From the NCBI RefSeq assembly GCF_002804065.1, contig NZ_CP024955.1, forward strand, positions 1,674,001-1,738,000: a stretch of DNA of 64,000 nucleotides, written 5' to 3'. How positions within the stretch are numbered: position 1 is the stretch's first letter; each line of letters opens with the position of its first letter. Made by a program: the position numbers and the translations under genes. This DNA comes from Kyrpidia spormannii. GTDB lineage: Bacteria > Bacillota > Bacilli > Kyrpidiales > Kyrpidiaceae. A model generated the notes under the pieces. It had not been told where the DNA came from. It made no database searches and worked only from the letters and a program-made list of their open reading frames with translations. Below are positions 49,883 through 64,000 of this stretch, piece by piece.

Positions 49883-50278
49883 CTACCGGCGACGTTGCAC
49901 CCAGGCTGCCAAATCTGTCCACTGCCCCGCCTTCGCCCCATCTGCGTCAGGCCGCTGGGAGGGAAGCGGAGAGGCAGGCAGCGTCGATTCGCCCTCGGCC
50001 TCCGCCCTGGTGGTCTCCTCCCCTTCGAATCCGGGCGGCCGCCCCGCCACGGCTAACTGTGCGAGATCGTCATCATCTGGCTCTGACCGCAGGTCGATGG
50101 TCGAAGGAGCCGCCTCGACCACCCACCTCCGCACCCCCTCCACCACCAGGGCCACAATGGTCAACACCACCGCAGACACCCCGGTCCGCAACAAAGCCGT
50201 CGTCCACACGTGCCCAGCCGCCACCGCGATCAGAAAAAAAACTCCACTTCCGAAGACCGGGACCGTCCACAGCTTCAT
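49883..50278 (-). CDS. Small membrane protein of unknown function between cheD and sigD
   Basis: The product has 131 residues. Two hydrophobic helices are visible at about 8-25 and 30-48, followed by a basic flank (EGVRRW) and a polar, acidic, Pro-rich cytoplasmic tail of about 75 residues. No family is recognised. Its ATG overlaps the cheD stop (ATGA) and it ends 16 bases before sigD, so it is translated as part of the operon. B. subtilis has no gene between cheD and sigD. A role in motility or in SigD control is only suggested by position. Confidence 0.65.
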   Translation of the reverse strand: MKLWTVPVFGSGVFFLIAVAAGHVWTTALLRTGVSAVVLTIVALVVEGVRRWVVEAAPSTIDLRSEPDDDDLAQLAVAGRPPGFEGEETTRAEAEGESTLPASPLPSQRPDADGAKAGQWTDLAAWVQRRR

Positions 50279-50763
50279 AGCACAATCTGTCCCCCCCGCA
50301 CCGTGCGCACCCATAAACGGCCGTCCTCGCTGTGCAACTCGATGGTCCTCCCGGTGGAACCGCCGACATCCTCCCCAACCATTGGAATCCCCCATTTCGC
50401 CAGGGCCCGGCGACAGGCGTCGACATTCCGGGGGCCAATCTTCAACAAATCGTTTTTCCCGGCAAACGTGAACATCTGGGCACCTCCGGCCATTTTGGCC
50501 CGTAAACGCTCGACTCGGGCGCCGTTTTGCTGCATCATTTCCACCAGCCAGTCCACCCCCGTATCGGCGAACTTCGCCCTGGTGGCGTCAGTAAACCCCT
50601 CGGCGGAAGGGAGCATGATGTGAACCAGCCCCGCCACTTTCGTTTGCGGATCCCACAGGGCAACCCCTACGCAGGAGCCGAGGCCCACAGATCGCAGGCG
50701 ATCCGGACAATGGACCACTTTTAAATCTGCCATGCCGACATGGACCACTTGGCCGGCGATCAC
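50275..50763 (-). CDS. cheD: Chemoreceptor glutamine deamidase CheD
   Basis: Deamidates receptor glutamines and binds CheC. It has 162 residues. Catalytic Cys31 lies in VGLGSCVGVALWD and His48 in GLVHIMLP, with the conserved AGKNDLLKIGPRNVDACR further on. GTG 50761-50763 overlaps the cheC stop (GTGA), making the pair co-translated, which suits their complex. The longer frame upstream lies inside cheC. Confidence 0.93.
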   Translation of the reverse strand: MIAGQVVHVGMADLKVVHCPDRLRSVGLGSCVGVALWDPQTKVAGLVHIMLPSAEGFTDATRAKFADTGVDWLVEMMQQNGARVERLRAKMAGGAQMFTFAGKNDLLKIGPRNVDACRRALAKWGIPMVGEDVGGSTGRTIELHSEDGRLWVRTVRGGQIVL

Positions 50764-51377
50764 TCTCCGCGCACCCCCAAGGCCGTCAGCAAAGGCAACA
50801 CACTGTCGGGATCGGGAACGAGGAGGAAGTGGCACCAGACATCCAATTCCTCGATATGGGCGCCGGTATGCACGATCAGGCATTGGTCGGCATCCGCGGT
50901 GAGCATCCCAACTTCTAAAATCGCCTGGGCCATGTCCACGGCCACGGCGGGCACAGAAGTCTCCACCTTGCCATGGGTGAAATCACTCAGCGAGATGAGA
51001 TATGCCGATGTCAGAATATTTCCTATTTCTCCAAGGGCGGATAAGGCCATCTCATTTTGCAGGTCGTCACCGAAGTCGCCCTCCGTCCACATGGCCCGGA
51101 GTACGGCTCGGGCCGAACAGGCTGGAATGATGAAAAAAAAGTTGCCGGGATAATCTCCTCCGATGCGAAAATAGGTGCCCACTACGACGTCCTCCGCACC
51201 GCCCACGGCGTCCACCACGTGATCAAAAGCCAGCACCTGAACCGTGGGCACCGTGATCCGAACCGGTCGCTGCAAGAGAAGGGACAAGCTCGTGGCCGCG
51301 TGGCCTGCCCCGATGTTGCCCACTTCCCGGAGGGCATCGAGGTGTCGATCGCCTAGTGGTTGCACCGGGGACCTCAC
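50760..51377 (-). CDS. cheC: CheY-P phosphatase CheC
   Basis: Dephosphorylates CheY-P and is stimulated by CheD. The 205-residue protein has both phosphatase motifs, DALREVGNIGAGHA near 15-28 and SALGEIGNILTSAY near 113-126 (D/S-x3-E-x2-N), so both sites look active. GTG 51375-51377 overlaps cheW as GTGA. It is typical of the Bacillus-type adaptation system with CheD. Confidence 0.93.
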   Translation of the reverse strand: MRSPVQPLGDRHLDALREVGNIGAGHAATSLSLLLQRPVRITVPTVQVLAFDHVVDAVGGAEDVVVGTYFRIGGDYPGNFFFIIPACSARAVLRAMWTEGDFGDDLQNEMALSALGEIGNILTSAYLISLSDFTHGKVETSVPAVAVDMAQAILEVGMLTADADQCLIVHTGAHIEELDVWCHFLLVPDPDSVLPLLTALGVRGE

Positions 51378-51853
51378 CAAGACATCGCGCCGAGCTCGGC
51401 CACTTCCTGGACGCTCAGCACCCGGTCGAGATTGAGCAAGACCAGCAGTCGATCGTCCAGTTTTGCCACTCCGCGAAGATAGTCCGCCTTGACACCACCC
51501 ACCACGGCCGGAGGAGGATCCACCCGAGACATGGGGACGTCGATGACGTCATTGGCCGCATCCACCACTAAGCCCACCTCCATTTCCCCAACAGCCACCA
51601 CGACGATCCGGGTATCGTCCGTGTACTCCACTTCAGGGAGGCCAAACCTTGCCCGCAAATCGATAATGGGCGTCACCACGCCGCGCAGATTGATGACCCC
51701 TTTAACGAAAGCGGGCGTCCGGGGAACCCGGGTGATCTTTTGCACGCGTTCAATAGACAGGACCTGAGAAACCTCAACCCCGTATTCCTCCGTCGCCAAT
51801 TGAAAAACGATCACTTTGACTTCTCGATCCAGATCTTGAGCTTTCTGCTCCAT
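51374..51853 (-). CDS. cheW: Chemotaxis coupling protein CheW
   Basis: Links receptors to CheA. It has 159 residues of SH3-like CheW fold: VKVIVFQLATEEYGVEVSQVLSIERV (13-38), VINLRGVVTPIIDLRARFGL near 53-72 and LLVLLNLDRVLS near 140. It sits 15 bases after cheA and overlaps cheC by four bases. Confidence 0.95.
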   Translation of the reverse strand: MEQKAQDLDREVKVIVFQLATEEYGVEVSQVLSIERVQKITRVPRTPAFVKGVINLRGVVTPIIDLRARFGLPEVEYTDDTRIVVVAVGEMEVGLVVDAANDVIDVPMSRVDPPPAVVGGVKADYLRGVAKLDDRLLVLLNLDRVLSVQEVAELGAMSW

Positions 51854-51868
51854 CCGGAATGCCTCCTC

Positions 51869-53974
51869 TCACGCCGCAAGAAAAGCATTACAGTCGATGA
51901 TCAGCGCCACCTGCCCGTCACCGAGCACCGTGGCACCGGCGATGGAAAACACTTGTTGCAAATACCGCCCGAGAGACTTCAGCACAATCTCCTGTTGACC
52001 GAGAAACTCATCGACGATAAACCCTGCGAACCGGTCGCCCCGGCGCACGATCAGGACATTTTCTTCATCTTTGGTCTCCTCGCGCCGAAGCTCGTACAAC
52101 CGTTCCAAATCGATGAGCGGAATGACCCGCCCTCTAAAGGGGATCACCTGTTGTCCGTGAAGATCCCGGATGTCCCCTCGATTCACGACGGCCGTCTCCA
52201 CGATGGAGTGAAGGGGAACGGCATATTTTTCTCCGGCCAGGCTGACCAGCATGGCTTGAATAATCGAGAGCGTCAGAGGCAATTGAATCACCCATTTCGT
52301 CCCTCGACCCGAGATGGATTCCACCGTCACCTTGCCCCCGACCTGCTCCAACTTGCGTTTCACGACATCCAAACCCACGCCCCGTCCGGAAACATCGCTG
52401 ACCGTGTCTTTCGTACTGAATCCCGGTTGGAAAAGAAGGTCAAAAACCTGTCCGTCCGTCAAGGAAGCCGCGTCACTGCGGTCAATAAGCCCCCGCTGCA
52501 CAGCTTTCTGAATCACTTTCTCGCGATCCACTCCCCGGCCATCGTCAGACACCTCGATAAACACGTTGTTTCCGGAATGATAAGCCACCAGCTCCACTCG
52601 CCCCGCCTCGGGTTTGCCAAGTTTCCGGCGCTCCTCCGGCGTCTCAATTCCGTGATCCACGGCGTTCCTCAACAGGTGCACCAAGGGGTCGCCAATCTCA
52701 TCGATGACCGTACGGTCTAGTCCCGTATCCCCGCCGCGAACGACAAAATCGACACTCTTCCCCAACTCCCGGGCCAGGTCCCTGACCATGCGCGGGAAGC
52801 GATTGAACACCGTGTCGACGGGCACCATGCGAATCGTCATCACCAAATTTTGAAGATCGGCGCTGATTCTCACCATGTGCTCGACTGTTGCCAGAAGGTC
52901 CTGATGTCCGGTTTGCTTCGCCAACTCTTCGATCCGGGTCCGGTCGATCACCAATTCGCTGAACAGGTTCATGAGGGTGTCCAACCGATCGATGTCCACG
53001 CGGACCGATTTGAGCGTGCGGTGATTCGTCGCCCTTTCTTCCGGGGAACCCCCCAGAGCTGTCGTGCGTACCCCCTTGGGAGAATCCGACTCACTTCCCG
53101 ACCCGTTTCGTTCTCCCTTTCCGCGTGGGGCGAGACGTTCGGGCGATGGTCCATTCCCGGTGGTTCCAGCCCACGGCTTGACCACCACCTCCCGGATTTC
53201 AGAAATCCCGAGCAGTGCTTTCTCCACGGCTTCGGGGCTTTCTTGTTTCAGAATGAGAAGCAGGCGGATGTCCAGATCCAGATTCCCTTGTTCCAGCTCC
53301 TCCACCGGAGGGTCCACCTTGACCAATTCCCCAAATTGTTCACAGGCGTCCACCACCATGTAAGCCCGGGCAGCCTTTAAGATACAACCTTCATCGAGCC
53401 GGACGGCGATGGTCACCACCTGTAAGCCTTCCCTCCGGGCCTCTTCGGCCACAGACTCCTGGTACGCGTCCAGGACGAGGGCCGGCCCTTGGGAACTGTC
53501 GATCTCCCGCCCACCTCCCGTCCGCCCCGCCGAAGGCCCCTTTCCGGCAGAGCCAGACCCGGCGTCGGGAGCACCGGTCATGCCCCGAGATTCATCCAAA
53601 AGCCGCTGAAGGCCTTGCACCACGTCTTCGGTGGGAATCCCGGCCAGGTCCCCTCCTTCTTCCACCGCCGCGAGTTGGGCTTCCAACAGGTCGACGGCTT
53701 TGAACAGCACATCCATATGGTCCGGAGTGATGGCCGCCCGGCCGTTTCGGATCTCGTCCAGGACGTTCTCCATGTCGTGCGTGACCCATACCATGGGCTC
53801 AAAACCCATGGTCGCCGCCATCCCCTTAATGGTGTGCGCCGACCGAAAAACGGCGTGGATCGCCTCATGGTCCGAGGAATCCCGCTCGAGAACTAGCAAT
53901 TGTTCGTTCAATTGCTGCAGATGCTCCTTCGTTTCTTCAATAAACATGTCGAGGTATTCACTGTTCTCCACCAT
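51869..53974 (-). CDS. cheA: Chemotaxis histidine kinase CheA
   Basis: Receptor-coupled kinase that phosphorylates CheY and CheB. It has 701 residues. P1 (1-105) has the phosphorylated His47 in FRSAHTIKGMA. P2 (about 165-275) is a CheY-binding module, P3 (about 320-385) the dimerisation helices, P4 the ATPase with N-box LLRNAVDHGIE near 440 and VSDDGRGVDREKV, and P5 (about 560-700) the CheW-like domain. A charged linker with Ser/Gly lies between P2 and P3. ATG is preceded by a G-rich site, nine bases after cheB. Confidence 0.95.
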   Translation of the reverse strand: MVENSEYLDMFIEETKEHLQQLNEQLLVLERDSSDHEAIHAVFRSAHTIKGMAATMGFEPMVWVTHDMENVLDEIRNGRAAITPDHMDVLFKAVDLLEAQLAAVEEGGDLAGIPTEDVVQGLQRLLDESRGMTGAPDAGSGSAGKGPSAGRTGGGREIDSSQGPALVLDAYQESVAEEARREGLQVVTIAVRLDEGCILKAARAYMVVDACEQFGELVKVDPPVEELEQGNLDLDIRLLLILKQESPEAVEKALLGISEIREVVVKPWAGTTGNGPSPERLAPRGKGERNGSGSESDSPKGVRTTALGGSPEERATNHRTLKSVRVDIDRLDTLMNLFSELVIDRTRIEELAKQTGHQDLLATVEHMVRISADLQNLVMTIRMVPVDTVFNRFPRMVRDLARELGKSVDFVVRGGDTGLDRTVIDEIGDPLVHLLRNAVDHGIETPEERRKLGKPEAGRVELVAYHSGNNVFIEVSDDGRGVDREKVIQKAVQRGLIDRSDAASLTDGQVFDLLFQPGFSTKDTVSDVSGRGVGLDVVKRKLEQVGGKVTVESISGRGTKWVIQLPLTLSIIQAMLVSLAGEKYAVPLHSIVETAVVNRGDIRDLHGQQVIPFRGRVIPLIDLERLYELRREETKDEENVLIVRRGDRFAGFIVDEFLGQQEIVLKSLGRYLQQVFSIAGATVLGDGQVALIIDCNAFLAA

Positions 53975-53982
53975 ACCACCCC

Positions 53983-54588
53983 CTACCTGTTCATGGACAA
54001 CTTCATCAGGAGGGCTGGGATTTCCTCTAGATCTGCGACGTAATCCACACAGCCGCGTTCGATGGCGGCCCGGGGCATTCCGAACACCACGGAACTCTCT
54101 TTAGACTGGGCGATGGTGATCCCCCCCCGGCGATGAATTTTCTCCATCCCCTCGGCCCCGTCCTTTCCCATGCCCGTCAAGAGGACGGCAATCACCGGTT
54201 GATGAGCCGCTCTAGCCGCCGAGTCAAACAATACATCCACGGAAGGTACGTGGTTGTGCCACGGAGTTTCTTCCCCAAGTTCCACAAACCAACCTTCAAG
54301 ATCCCGATGGACTCTCATCTGTCGACCTCCAGGGGCAATGGCCACGGTTCCCGGCCTCAGCCGATTTCCCTTGGCCGCCTCAAACACCTGCAGTGACGAC
54401 TCTTGGTTGAGTCTGGCGGCAAAAGTCCGGGTGAAGGCCTCGGGCATATGTTGAACCACAGCAATGGGCAGTGGAAAGGTTTTTGGAAGTCCTGACAAAA
54501 TGGATGCAAGGGCGGTGGGTCCCCCCGTGGATGCCCCCATCACCACGAGTTCCGCCGCGCCCCACCTTTTATCCGCGCCCGAGGGCAT
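53983..54588 (-). CDS. cheB: CheB methylesterase catalytic domain, without receiver domain
   Basis: Removes methyl groups from chemoreceptors. Only the esterase domain is encoded, about 201 residues. The triad is Ser20 (MGASTGGPT), His47 (VVQHMPE) and Asp143 (TGMGKDGAEG). Full CheB has a CheY-like receiver of about 120 residues in front, which is absent here. The upstream DNA is the 3' end of flhG in another frame, so it is not a frame-shifted receiver. ATG 54586-54588 lies 20 bases inside flhG; the ribosome site is weak, and a later GTG is possible. Order flhG-cheB-cheA is as in B. subtilis. Confidence 0.87.
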   Translation of the reverse strand: MPSGADKRWGAAELVVMGASTGGPTALASILSGLPKTFPLPIAVVQHMPEAFTRTFAARLNQESSLQVFEAAKGNRLRPGTVAIAPGGRQMRVHRDLEGWFVELGEETPWHNHVPSVDVLFDSAARAAHQPVIAVLLTGMGKDGAEGMEKIHRRGGITIAQSKESSVVFGMPRAAIERGCVDYVADLEEIPALLMKLSMNR

Positions 54589-55453
54589 GCTGCAGTTTCC
54601 AGATGAACTCGCGCCAGCCGCGCCGACTCGGGGGGCTCTCTGCCGGAGCGACATCCTCACCGCCCATCAGGCGGCGGGCGATTTGTCGTACACACTGGGC
54701 AGCCCGGCTATCGGGAGCACTCAGGAGAAAGGGCGTTTGTCGAAAAACGGCCCGTCCCACCGCAGGATCCTCGAGAATATACCCCATCGCACCGGGCTCG
54801 AAAGAAAGAAAAGTTTTCGAAACCTGGACCAATCGTTGAAACGTTTGTATCCCCTCCGAAAACGTCCGGCACCGGTTGACCACGATCCGAATGCGGGCGC
54901 TCAGGGACCGCCGAACCAGTACTTTGATCAAGGCGTAGGCGTCCGCAAGGGCTGTGGGTTCCGGGGTTGTCACAAGCAGAATCTGATCCACACTTTCCAA
55001 TAGGTGAAGGCTCGATTCATTCAGCCCGGCGCCGGTATCGACGATGACCCAGTCGAGAGTCGATTCCAAATCCATCAATTTATCGAAACACACCTTGACT
55101 TGATCCCTGGAAAGCTGGATCCAATCGGGCAAGGCCGTGCCCCCTGAGATCCAGGAAATCCCTAGGGGGCCGGTCTGGACGACATCTGAAGCCAAAACCC
55201 CGGGCTGAGCCAAATCCAGCAACGTTCGGCCCGCACCACTTCCAAGTAAAACATTCACGTTGGCAAATCCGACGTCGGTGTCCAAGATGAGGGTGTTCTT
55301 GTGCTCCTGTTGAAGAGCCAAGGCGACATTGACGGCCACGTTGGACTTTCCCACCCCACCTTTCCCGCTGGTCACCGCCGCGGTCTTCAACGAGACTCCC
55401 CGGGGCCCGGACTGATGGGCCATCCTTTTGCGCAACTCGGATGCCTGATCCAT
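54569..55453 (-). CDS. flhG: MinD/ParA-like ATPase FlhG (YlxH)
   Basis: Controls flagellar number and placement together with FlhF. The 294-residue ATPase has the deviant Walker A GKGGVGKS at residues 30-37 and IVDTGAGLNESSLHLLE as Walker B region near 140. DQASELRKRMA at the N-terminus resembles the activator helix that stimulates FlhF GTPase. It follows flhF by 14 bases and ends inside the start of cheB. Confidence 0.93.
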   Translation of the reverse strand: MDQASELRKRMAHQSGPRGVSLKTAAVTSGKGGVGKSNVAVNVALALQQEHKNTLILDTDVGFANVNVLLGSGAGRTLLDLAQPGVLASDVVQTGPLGISWISGGTALPDWIQLSRDQVKVCFDKLMDLESTLDWVIVDTGAGLNESSLHLLESVDQILLVTTPEPTALADAYALIKVLVRRSLSARIRIVVNRCRTFSEGIQTFQRLVQVSKTFLSFEPGAMGYILEDPAVGRAVFRQTPFLLSAPDSRAAQCVRQIARRLMGGEDVAPAESPPSRRGWREFIWKLQHALGRG

Positions 55454-55467
55454 CGTCTCCCCCCGTC

Positions 55468-56658
55468 CTAAAAGAGCCGCTGTGCCAGATAAGCGGCATC
55501 CGCTTCGATAATGTCGTCCGGAACGCCTTGCCCGGTCGTGATGTATGCCACGGGTCGGGATTCTGCCAGTATGAGATCAACCGCCGAGGCCAAGCTTTCC
55601 GTTTCATCCGCCTTGGTGAACAGGTATTTGTCGATCGCCACCTCCCGGAGTGCCTCCACCGTCCGGTACAAATCCCGGCCTTTACCAGACAGGCTTAAGA
55701 CGAGGTAGGTCTCGTCGGGCTTTGCGGCCTGAAGCATTTCGCGCAACGACAACGCGTGTTCACGCTGGGTGTAATTGCGCCCCGCAGTATCCACGAAGAT
55801 GCGGTCATATTCTGCCAACTCCCCCACCGTGCGCCGCATTTCCTCGGGGGTGTACACGACGAAGCAAGGTATACCAATGATCTGGGCGTAGGTTCGCAGT
55901 TGGTCGACGGCGGCAATGCGGTACGTATCCGCTGTGATCAAGGCCACCCGGCGACCGGCGTCCAAAGTCTCGATAGCCGCGAGTTTCGCTATCGTGGTGG
56001 TTTTCCCAACCCCCGTGGGCCCAGCCAAGGCAATCACCCGAGACTCCGCCGCCATGGGTGAGCCGACCCAGGGCTGAAGCTGGCTGCGGACAATCTCCTG
56101 CAGCTGCTCGACCATATGCGATATTTCCCAGGACCCGTCGTCGGGAATCGAGATAACCGCCTGCTCGGCCAGAGCCCGGGCCCGGCGCTCGTCCATGCCG
56201 CCGGCCACCAGGCCTTCGGCCAAGTGTACGAGGGCCCGGGCTGCCGGGGATTCCCCCGAGGCCGCGATCTTGCGGATGAGCTCTCGCCACCCCGCATCGG
56301 TCAGGTCCCGGACATCGCCCGAAACACCGGAGCGTCCCGAGGAGCCCGTCAATGGATCCCGGTACAAATTGCCCCGTGTGAACTCAGCCCCTACCTCCCC
56401 GGGATCGGGACCTGATAAAAAATTCACCTCAGGGCGGGGGTTCGACCGGGGCCCGGTGGGCGCCGGTCCCTTCGCCCCTTGTCCGCCCCCATCTTCTACG
56501 GCGGCCACGATTTCAATCCGCTTTCTCCGCCGCCAGGGAACCCAACGAGAGGCCGGCACTTCCCTCGTGTTGAGAATCACCGCCTCTCCCCCGAGCTCGT
56601 CCCGAACCCGGGCCATGGCTGTCGCCATATCTTCGGCAGTAAATCGTTTGATCCTCAC
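55468..56658 (-). CDS. flhF: SRP-family GTPase FlhF
   Basis: GTPase that positions new flagella. It has 396 residues: basic N-terminal B domain beginning RIKRFTAEDMATAMARV, a variable linker (about 50-120), and the NG domain with ALAGPTGVGKTTTIAKLAA (P-loop 213-220), VDTAGRNYTQREHALSL and TKADETESL. GTG start overlaps the flhA stop (GTGA). Order flhA-flhF-flhG is standard. Confidence 0.94.
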   Translation of the reverse strand: MRIKRFTAEDMATAMARVRDELGGEAVILNTREVPASRWVPWRRRKRIEIVAAVEDGGGQGAKGPAPTGPRSNPRPEVNFLSGPDPGEVGAEFTRGNLYRDPLTGSSGRSGVSGDVRDLTDAGWRELIRKIAASGESPAARALVHLAEGLVAGGMDERRARALAEQAVISIPDDGSWEISHMVEQLQEIVRSQLQPWVGSPMAAESRVIALAGPTGVGKTTTIAKLAAIETLDAGRRVALITADTYRIAAVDQLRTYAQIIGIPCFVVYTPEEMRRTVGELAEYDRIFVDTAGRNYTQREHALSLREMLQAAKPDETYLVLSLSGKGRDLYRTVEALREVAIDKYLFTKADETESLASAVDLILAESRPVAYITTGQGVPDDIIEADAAYLAQRLF

Positions 56659-61671: not shown

Positions 61672-62182
61672 CCCCATCCATTCCCCTCTGTTTCTGGAGC
61701 CACGTCCGGCGCCGATCGGCCATCTTTTGGAGGACCTCGGCCAGTCGGCGGTCAAAGCCCGGGGCCTTCCCTTCCTCTCTTTGGAGGCTTTGTTTCCGCT
61801 GTGGATCCTCAATCACTTCAAGTAAGCGGATGTCCTGGGCCACCCCCAACACGAGCACCCGGTCTGCCACTTCGATTAAATGAACCGCTTTACCTGGTCC
61901 GAGAGGGAGGACGCCCAGCACTCTGAAGCTGTCAGACCCCGCCGCTTTCGGCCAGCGCCCCCGCAGCCACCTGGACGCGAGCCAGATGAGGGCCAGAATG
62001 ACCAGCAAACCCAGCCCGAGCTTCAGAAAGGATAGCGACAAAGACGGCACGGGAGGGGGCGCCGAAGGGGTGCTGGGAGGAGCGTGACGGACTGCATCTT
62101 CCACAGAGTTCGCCACGGCCAAACTCGTACGTGGCCACGCGAGCAACCAACACCACCCGGCAAAAACCAACACGGCCTTCAT
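61664..62182 (-). CDS. fliO: Flagellar biosynthesis protein FliO/FliZ
   Basis: Bitopic membrane protein that helps FliP assemble. The 172-residue product has a signal-like N-terminus (VLVFAGWCWLLAW), a Pro-rich external stretch, a membrane helix at about 58-78, and the cytoplasmic FliO domain with VLGVLPLGPGKAVHLIEVADRVLVLGV near 85-112. B. subtilis calls it FliZ. The ATG overlaps the cheY stop (ATGA). Confidence 0.88.
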   Translation of the reverse strand: MKAVLVFAGWCWLLAWPRTSLAVANSVEDAVRHAPPSTPSAPPPVPSLSLSFLKLGLGLLVILALIWLASRWLRGRWPKAAGSDSFRVLGVLPLGPGKAVHLIEVADRVLVLGVAQDIRLLEVIEDPQRKQSLQREEGKAPGFDRRLAEVLQKMADRRRTWLQKQRGMDGDD

Positions 62183-62541
62183 CCCAAAGTCTTGCGGACC
62201 GCTTCCAAAACGCGATCCGCCTGAAACGGCTTTACGATAAAATCCTTGGCCCCGGCCTGTATCGCGTCGATCACCATCGCCTGCTGCCCCATTGCCGAGC
62301 ACATGATCACTTTCGCCTCCGGATCAATGGCCCGGATCCGCTTGAGCGCCTCGATCCCGTCCATCTCGGGCATCGTAATATCGAGGGTGACAAGATCCGG
62401 CCGAAGTTCCTGAAACTTTTCCACAGCCTGGATGCCGTTCACCGCCTCGCCCACCACTTCGTACCCGTGCTTGGTCAGAATCTCCTTGATCATCATGCGC
62501 ATGAACGCGGCATCGTCTACGACGAGAACTTTGCGACTCAC
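62179..62541 (-). CDS. cheY: Chemotaxis response regulator CheY
   Basis: Single-domain receiver that carries the signal from CheA to the motor. The 120-residue protein has the acidic pair Asp9/Asp10, phospho-acceptor Asp54 (LVTLDITMPEMDG), Ser82 and Lys104 (VKPF). GTG 62539-62541 follows GGGAGG by nine bases. It is placed between fliY and fliO, as in B. subtilis. Confidence 0.95.
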   Translation of the reverse strand: MSRKVLVVDDAAFMRMMIKEILTKHGYEVVGEAVNGIQAVEKFQELRPDLVTLDITMPEMDGIEALKRIRAIDPEAKVIMCSAMGQQAMVIDAIQAGAKDFIVKPFQADRVLEAVRKTLG

Positions 62542-62545
62542 CTTC

Positions 62546-63733
62546 TCACCCTCCCTGCTGTACACCGCGCATTCGATCGCGGGGGTGTACAATGTCTGTC
62601 ACCCGCACTCCAAAGTTTTCGTCGATGACCACAACTTCCCCTTTTGCGATCAATTTCTGGTTGACGTAAATATCCACCGGCTCCCCGGCCAGGCGATCCA
62701 ATTCCACCACAGATCCCAGGGACCAGCTCAGAACCTCCCGAACAGACTGACGGGTGCGGCCAAGCTCGACACTCACCGTGAGGGATACGTCGAGCAAAAG
62801 ATCGAGGTTATCCATCCGGGGCGTTTCGGCACCAGGGGAGTGCAGAGGGCCGAATTCCACCGGCTTGACGACGGTCTGCGCGCTGGCAGCCACCTCGGTT
62901 TGGGAGGTCCCGGCTTCGTGATAACCCCCCGGCCGATCCGCCACAGCCTTCTCTTGGGGGGAGACGGTTTGCTGGCCGGAAGCCTCTGTAGGAGACGGGG
63001 CACCTGTCCCTGTGGACGGCTGAGTTCCCGGGGTTTGCGATGGTGCCGTGGCAGAAGGACTCGCACTGTCCTGCGGCCCCATTAGCGCCGTCACCATTTT
63101 CTTGGCGAAGCTGAGAGGAATGATCTGCATGATGTGCGAGTCGATGAGATCAGCGACGATGAGGCGAAAAGCCACCTTCACCACGACTTCTTCTCCGGAA
63201 AACAGCTCCCCCGGCGTTTCCTTTTGAAAATCCACAATTCGGGCCGTGGGCGGCGAAATGTTGATTTTCATGTTAAACATCTGGGACATGGAGGTGGCCG
63301 CCGACCCCATCATCTGGTTCATCGCTTCACTCACCGCACTGAGCTGCAATTCATCGAGCTCGCCTTCCGGGGGAGCTCCTTGACCACCCATCATGAGATC
63401 AGCAATGATCCGGGCGTCCTCCGGGCGGATAAACAAAGCGTTGAGCCCCTCAAAACCCGCGGTATACTGGACCTGCACCGCAACATGGGGCACGGGAAAT
63501 TCGCTGCCCAGTTCCTGGGTTTTGGCCACACTCACCATTGGCGTGGTGATTTCCACCCGTCTATTTAAAAGGGTAGACAGGGCCGTGGCGGCAGTTCCGA
63601 AACTGATGTTGCCAATCTCCCCGAGGGCGTCCCGCTCCATGTCGCTCAGGGTTTCTCCTTGTTGCGGAGGCGTCATGGCCCCTCCTCCCCGAAGAAGCGC
63701 GTCGATTTCATCCTGAGATAACATATCGGACAC
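62546..63733 (-). CDS. fliY: Flagellar motor switch phosphatase FliY
   Basis: Switch-complex protein that replaces FliN in Bacillus-type motors and dephosphorylates CheY-P. It has 395 residues: an N-terminal CheY-binding peptide (MLSQDEIDALLRGG), a CheC-like domain (about 25-210) with active motifs DALGEIGNISFG and SAVSEAMNQMMG, a Pro/Ser/Thr/Gln-rich linker (about 218-300), and a C-terminal FliN/SpoA domain (about 305-385) with SVREVLSWSLGSVVELDRLAGEPVDI. GTG 63731-63733 has GGGGGTG ahead; the fliM stop is one base upstream. Confidence 0.94.
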   Translation of the reverse strand: MSDMLSQDEIDALLRGGGAMTPPQQGETLSDMERDALGEIGNISFGTAATALSTLLNRRVEITTPMVSVAKTQELGSEFPVPHVAVQVQYTAGFEGLNALFIRPEDARIIADLMMGGQGAPPEGELDELQLSAVSEAMNQMMGSAATSMSQMFNMKINISPPTARIVDFQKETPGELFSGEEVVVKVAFRLIVADLIDSHIMQIIPLSFAKKMVTALMGPQDSASPSATAPSQTPGTQPSTGTGAPSPTEASGQQTVSPQEKAVADRPGGYHEAGTSQTEVAASAQTVVKPVEFGPLHSPGAETPRMDNLDLLLDVSLTVSVELGRTRQSVREVLSWSLGSVVELDRLAGEPVDIYVNQKLIAKGEVVVIDENFGVRVTDIVHPRDRMRGVQQGG

Positions 63734-63734
63734 C

Positions 63735-64000
63735 TTATTCACCCCCTTCGTCATCGGCGATCTCTGTAATTTGAACAGCGAGCCGGCCGTGATCCACTCC
63801 CGGGCGGCCAAGATATTTCACCTTGTCCCCGACATAGATCTCCACGGGCCGGTTCACGGCTTGATGAAGGGGGATGACATCCCCGGCGGAGAGGTGCATC
63901 AAGTCGTAGAAATCGATCGAGGTCCTTCCCAAAACCGCCCGGATTTCCACCGGGGCAGCCCGCAAACGTTCCCGCAGCGCCTCCTCTCTCGCAGGATCCA
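63735..64000 (-). CDS. fliM: Flagellar motor switch protein FliM, C-terminal part
   Basis: Only the last 87 or so codons are inside the window; the gene continues beyond the right edge with no in-frame stop. The segment is the SpoA domain: RLRAAPVEIRAVLGRTSI, FYDLMHLSAGDVIPLHQ and VEIYVGDKVKYLGRPG. FliM carries CheY-P binding and torque-switch functions in its missing N-terminal portion. It ends one base before fliY. Confidence 0.9.
   Translation of the reverse strand, partial: DPAREEALRERLRAAPVEIRAVLGRTSIDFYDLMHLSAGDVIPLHQAVNRPVEIYVGDKVKYLGRPGVDHGRLAVQITEIADDEGGE

Follow-up and report, generated by a model that had tools for sequence, protein, structure and literature searches.

Background

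In two-domain CheB methylesterases the active site is occluded by the regulatory domain, and deletion of that domain activates the enzyme, albeit less than phosphorylation does (passages of PMC8609364). The Escherichia coli catalytic domain alone, CheBc (residues 147-349), is free of phosphorylation feedback and is described, in excerpts of PMC5809149, as capable of precise adaptation; the same excerpts report that in E. coli with CheBc kinase activity was bimodal and migration in soft agar severely impaired, and CheBc is given as binding receptor much more weakly than a phosphorylation mimic (PMC8609364, in part). With such bimodality, poor migration and weak receptor binding, it is not obvious that the isolated catalytic domain suffices.

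CheB proteins of this kind also occur naturally. The Campylobacter jejuni CheB has no CheY-like or response regulator domain according to passages in PMC3879368 and PMC340952. In Myxococcus xanthus, FrzG (334 aa) has its methylesterase domain at residues 150-330 and CheBa (185 aa) consists of the catalytic domain only (sections of PMC3945109), and the FrzG receiver is referred to as largely degenerate in part of PMC4546325. For Bacillus subtilis, passages of PMC340952 state that CheB phosphorylation is necessary for activity, which counts against the explanation that we favour below, and also that it makes little sense as a selective control and that its role is unknown.

The receiver-less architecture is already known, and the CheB described here is a further case. 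We report that Kyrpidia spormannii has an intact, selected and receiver-less CheB, confirming an observation made earlier from the DNA letters alone (the sequence-only reading). Among open-licence PMC papers we found no report of a receiver-less CheB in Kyrpidia, or of one order-wide in Bacilli; that such a CheB has become fixed in a Bacilli order whose chemotaxis pathway is of the Bacillus type is apparently unreported within that literature.

Results

The Kyrpidia cheB locus

In the window, i.e. the whole 64,000-nucleotide stretch of K. spormannii DNA that was analysed, cheB is located on the minus strand at 53983-54588, exactly where the sequence-only reading had put it, and encodes a protein of 201 aa that consists of the catalytic methylesterase domain alone. 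The reading frame extends over 53983-54660 (minus strand, 225 codons without a stop), and the ATG at 54588, from which the 201 aa are counted, lies within the end of flhG with an overlap of 20 nt. The upstream DNA had been read as flhG; we find a MinD/ParA-type ATPase gene at 54569-55453 directly upstream of cheB (minus strand; frame list and Pfam), and flhF at 55468-56658 on the same strand, the operon order being as in other Bacilli. The remaining chemotaxis genes, all on the minus strand and assigned with Pfam, comprise a complete cheA (51869-53974; Hpt, P2, dimerisation, HATPase and CheW domains), cheW (51374-51853; also found in the CheW-domain search), cheC with two CheC stretches (50760-51380), cheD (50275-50883; match on residues 90-194), cheY, a stand-alone receiver (62179-62592), and fliY, which has a CheC-like and a FliN C-terminal domain (62546-63811). 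CheC, CheD and FliY, which had looked intact in the sequence-only reading, are recognisable. In the cheD frame approximately 90 codons precede the Pfam CheD match, and the true start may be further in.

Pfam detected CheB_methylest (PF01339) alone in the window CheB (positions 1-173/174, E 1.6e-65), as a full-length domain match of 220.5 bits vs a cut-off of 24, and no Response_reg. The full-length CheB model NF001965 was matched at model positions 161-353 of 357 only, scoring 241.2 bits where the cut-off is 293, and the N-terminal phosphoacceptor receiver that belongs to this two-domain model is missing from the Kyrpidia CheB. In other Bacilli the receiver part of cheB is situated between flhG and the catalytic part, whereas Kyrpidia is without it. 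With an HMM trained on the N-terminal parts of 28 CheBs from Bacilli, six-frame searches of approximately 10 kb around cheB at the four Kyrpidiales loci showed no receiver remnant (best whole-frame E 9.6), and the four short CheB frames themselves gave no match better than E 1.2; three receiver-bearing loci used as positive controls were detected with E <1e-66 (L079 and L080 in the training set, L076 outside it). A receiver pseudogene near the locus could be ruled out, since the six-frame search was empty. That both receiver and linker are missing is borne out by Pfam, NF001965 and the six-frame HMM search.

Active site, fold and conserved residues

S20, H47 and D143, which correspond to the Ser/His/Asp triad of Salmonella CheB, are invariant in all 38 sequences of alignment A1 (the window CheB and 37 of 80 loci), in keeping with the earlier statement that the triad is intact. 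The AlphaFold model of the protein has a mean pLDDT of 92.8, with low confidence for residues 1-6, and Foldseek ranks 1chd, the Salmonella catalytic domain on its own, first among its matches (TM 0.90). Alignment of the model with 1chd using VIA-align gave Z 34.2 and rmsd 2.1 for 193 aligned residues, and Z was similar for 6ymz, 3sft and 1a2o; as modelled, the Kyrpidia CheB has the fold of solved CheB catalytic domains. From the conservation and a dN/dS of about 0.11 (see below) we predict that it hydrolyses methyl esters on receptors.

Among 46 positions that are invariant across 22 full-length Bacilli CheBs, 40 are retained in all four Kyrpidiales CheBs. In a comparison aimed at a loosened receiver-facing surface, just eight columns are conserved in full-length CheBs yet changed in Kyrpidiales, and at these the other short CheBs mostly have the common residue. 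The signature HRPSVDVLF reads HVPSVDVLF in 4/4 Kyrpidiales (window 54247-54255, CheB residues 112-114). Residue 112 is Asn in Kyrpidiales and Gly in 22/22 full-length Bacilli CheBs, and residue 114 is Val in Kyrpidiales and Arg in 21/22; three other short Bacilli CheBs retain both Gly 112 and Arg 114. At residue 114, a wider set of 36 relatives has 23 Arg and seven Lys. Since N112 and V114 depart from a well-conserved loop, the CheB activity in Kyrpidiales could be altered.

Conservation and selection in Kyrpidiales

One CheB match, each time receiver-less, was found in each of the four genomes examined from the Kyrpidia family/order, two of which are incomplete (86% and 79%). The open cheB frames in these genomes have lengths of 227, 227, 228 and 253, and in every one of them cheB begins, with its ATG, exactly 20 nt before flhG ends. 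The CheB of Kyrpidia sp. Bu79 is 81% identical to the window CheB. Two within-genus comparisons, calculated without the first eight cheB codons (dS being saturated vs G001), gave dN/dS values of 0.108 and 0.109, i.e. cheB is under purifying selection. When scaled to the remainder of the tree, the CheB lengths on the stem and in the crown (0.131 and 0.051) are similar to those of CheA (0.135 and 0.050), and both fall inside the ranges spanned by the seven genes analysed (0.026-0.202 for the stem and 0.015-0.066 for the crown).

The dN/dS values together with the fixation in four genomes rule out a recent decay of cheB; the loss of the receiver in Kyrpidiales is an old and fixed domain loss and not damage. 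Because the receiver is present in 20/20 other Bacilli (see below) and absent in all four Kyrpidiales, the loss most likely occurred on the stem of the Kyrpidia order. The sequence-only reading had proposed that relatives with an intact receiver at this locus would indicate recent damage: distant Bacilli do keep the receiver, but its absence from 4/4 Kyrpidiales and the selection on the gene speak against the damage.

Chemotaxis genes in the K. spormannii genome

The K. spormannii genome (single contig, 3.35 Mb, 99.99% complete) has one CheB domain in the whole-genome search, one CheR and 14 chemoreceptors. Another CheB and a CheR were the two proteins that the earlier reading proposed to look for: a second cheB is ruled out by the single CheB domain, and CheR is present in one copy. 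There are 20 receiver domains, two of which are stand-alone as judged by frame length, CheY (139 codons) and a 147-codon frame that resembles Spo0F and was named by eye (this reading of the receiver frames covered all except L020, L025, L026, L027, L029 and L030). No CheV was found in any of the four Kyrpidiales genomes, where the CheW domain is present on CheA and CheW only.

The receptor methylation consensus is present in 12/14 receptors; within the final 360 aa of the receptors there are approximately 26 sites, compared with a mean of 2.6 and a maximum of 9 in 500 shuffles (the shuffles were done on the set before receptor L011 was corrected). The chemoreceptor genes L007 and L011 are adjacent and on opposite strands (G000:C1 2936398-2938167).

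CheB in other Bacilli

Outside Kyrpidiales we compared 20 Bacilli operons, selected for long CheB frames. All 20 have the gene order flhG - cheB - cheA with CheB frames of 356-408 codons, and all 20 were positive with the receiver HMM at E values no worse than 2.4e-58, including nine that had not been used for training. CheB is present in 218/398 genomes of the class Bacilli, and among 151 rows listed nine CheB frames are <300 aa, including the four from Kyrpidiales; the remaining ones belong to G330, G037, G052, G304 and G359.

Two of these are receiver-less at the che locus, and the six-frame HMM search showed no receiver remnant at either. In G330, from another Bacilli family, the receiver-less CheB (L075, 4928-5605) is encoded in a fla/che operon that looks normal in other respects. 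The cheA of this operon has a CheW-domain match that crosses one stop, and G330 carries two more CheA genes besides. In G037 (L073, 4546-6853) the receiver-less cheB is directly followed by cheW in an operon without cheA; the sole CheA is located elsewhere in the genome, cheC is matched by a frame of 116 codons, and the chemotaxis pathway may be undergoing rearrangement. In the single-contig genome G052 the receiver and catalytic parts of cheB are in different reading frames (L076, 3992-5148), representing a mutation or a sequence error and no true receiver loss. The short CheB in G304, which groups with G330 in a 78-row tree, is too close to a contig end to be counted either way, and that in G359 is sited apart from the che operon.

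The 78-row tree was computed without odd-numbered non-Bacilli loci, L093 excepted. In this tree the G330 and G037 CheBs have separate places within the Bacilli clade and away from Kyrpidiales, which suggests that the receiver has probably been lost more than once at the che locus in Bacilli.

Discussion

Origin of the receiver-less CheB

We consider it quite probable that the receiver was deleted in an ancestor of Kyrpidia and that CheB is a constitutively active, CheA-independent methylesterase, with kinase feedback only via CheY-P together with CheC and CheD. Specifically, in the ancestor of the order the receiver and linker of the fla/che-operon CheB would have been deleted such that the start codon was left inside the end of flhG; the absence of both is shown by the anatomy, the synteny and the state of all four genomes, and a deletion in place is the route that we favour over replacement by horizontal transfer.

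According to the latter, which we find unlikely, an incoming catalytic domain displaced the resident full-length cheB and no deletion took place. Some of the data are in its favour: the Kyrpidiales CheB falls outside a clade of 30 Bacilli operon CheBs and has a long stem in the 78-row tree, a Bacilli tree of 26 rows pairs it with the single row L191 and not with the sister group seen for FlhA and CheA, and the CheB identities are not tracked by those of CheW or CheC (rho -0.10 and -0.16). However, after removal of six long-branch rows (L106, L049, L138, L148, L150 and L093) the four Kyrpidiales and the 30 Bacilli were on one side of a branch with a support of 86, which is not decisive, and the CheB identities to other Bacilli track those of FlhA (rho 0.64), CheD (0.58) and CheA (0.48), with weaker correlations for FlhF (0.36), SigD (0.35) and FlhG (0.25). 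Moreover, cheB occupies its usual position in the operon.

Activity and regulation of CheB

Following deletion in place, the remaining CheB would be a functional and constitutively active receptor methylesterase, equivalent to E. coli CheBc. The conserved active site, the selection and the modelled fold argue for a functional enzyme, and constitutive activity is expected since the occluding domain is absent and the start is near that of CheBc. On anatomical grounds CheA should be unable to phosphorylate the Kyrpidia CheB. The enzyme would work continuously against CheR on receptors that retain methylation consensus sites, and demethylation would be set by receptor conformation and the amount of enzyme, not by CheA phosphorylation. 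Given that there is no CheV and that CheB is receiver-less, kinase-dependent feedback on the receptors would pass solely through CheY-P with CheC and CheD, and CheC and FliY would take the phosphate off CheY-P. CheC, CheD and FliY have these roles in CheY-P feedback in B. subtilis. A Bacillus-type pathway with feedback by CheC, CheD and CheY may tolerate the loss of the CheB receiver. That adaptation would then rest on CheC/CheD and FliY, as was proposed from the DNA letters, is too strong, since CheR, the CheB active site and the receptor methylation consensus sites are all retained, and since E. coli with the catalytic domain alone is also described as able to adapt precisely (excerpts of PMC5809149).

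The kinase could instead act in trans, with CheY-P (or a different receiver protein) binding to the isolated catalytic domain and controlling it. Kyrpidia has a CheY, and its CheA retains the P2 domain, but as judged by frame length there are only two stand-alone receivers, CheY and the Spo0F-like frame, and we saw no sign of contact between CheB and CheY; there is little support for the separate receiver partner that had been suggested, and we regard control in trans as improbable, even more so than horizontal transfer.

A recently truncated and non-functional cheB has a precedent among other Bacilli in the split gene of G052, but with a truncated state common to four genomes, a dN/dS of about 0.11 and most of the invariant residues retained, we give this reading hardly any weight. 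An error of sequencing or assembly where flhG meets cheB is the least credible of all, with an identical 20-nt overlap in four genomes and no receiver-like stretch nearby in any frame.

For the favoured explanation, the broader consequence is that in a whole order of Bacilli CheY would be the sole chemotaxis phosphate acceptor from CheA, with methylation uncoupled and all kinase feedback passing via CheY-P, CheC and CheD; we hold this to be slightly more probable than the contrary. If true, the order is a natural experiment on the contribution of CheB phosphorylation, and feedback via CheB phosphorylation would be dispensable where CheR, methylatable receptors, CheC, CheD, FliY and a selected cheB are retained, in contrast to E. 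coli, where its loss is costly (as presented in parts of PMC5809149). The Kyrpidia CheB would also be a ready-made enzyme for direct tests of the role of CheB phosphorylation.

Comparison with known systems

Judged by published descriptions (passages of the papers cited above), the C. jejuni and Kyrpidia proteins are alike in being flagellar chemotaxis CheBs without a CheY-like domain, and as in C. jejuni the sole CheB is a single catalytic domain in the K. spormannii genome and in 4/4 Kyrpidiales (two of them incomplete). A CheV, and a CheY-like domain on CheA, are further present in C. jejuni (PMC3879368, in part) and missing from Kyrpidia, which differs as well in having CheC, CheD and FliY, with the genes ordered as in Bacillus. 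The cut in E. coli CheBc is close to the Kyrpidia start, with the ATG near Salmonella residue 145 as extrapolated from model residue 8 being equivalent to 1chd residue 152; CheBc is engineered, and its host pathway, in which CheB is normally phosphorylated, lacks CheC and CheD. FrzG and CheBa of M. xanthus are, as in Kyrpidia, methylesterases without a recognised receiver, but FrzG retains an N-terminal part and M. xanthus also has five receiver-bearing CheBs, CheB3, 5, 6, 7 and 8 (sections of PMC3945109).

With respect to the locus, the closest counterpart is the B. subtilis-type operon, in which the genes are arranged as flhG-cheB-cheA-cheW-cheC-cheD. This is the fla/che gene order of B. subtilis itself. 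Kyrpidia has its cheB at the same locus, and the 20/20 operons of this type that we compared have the receiver that the Kyrpidia CheB is without.
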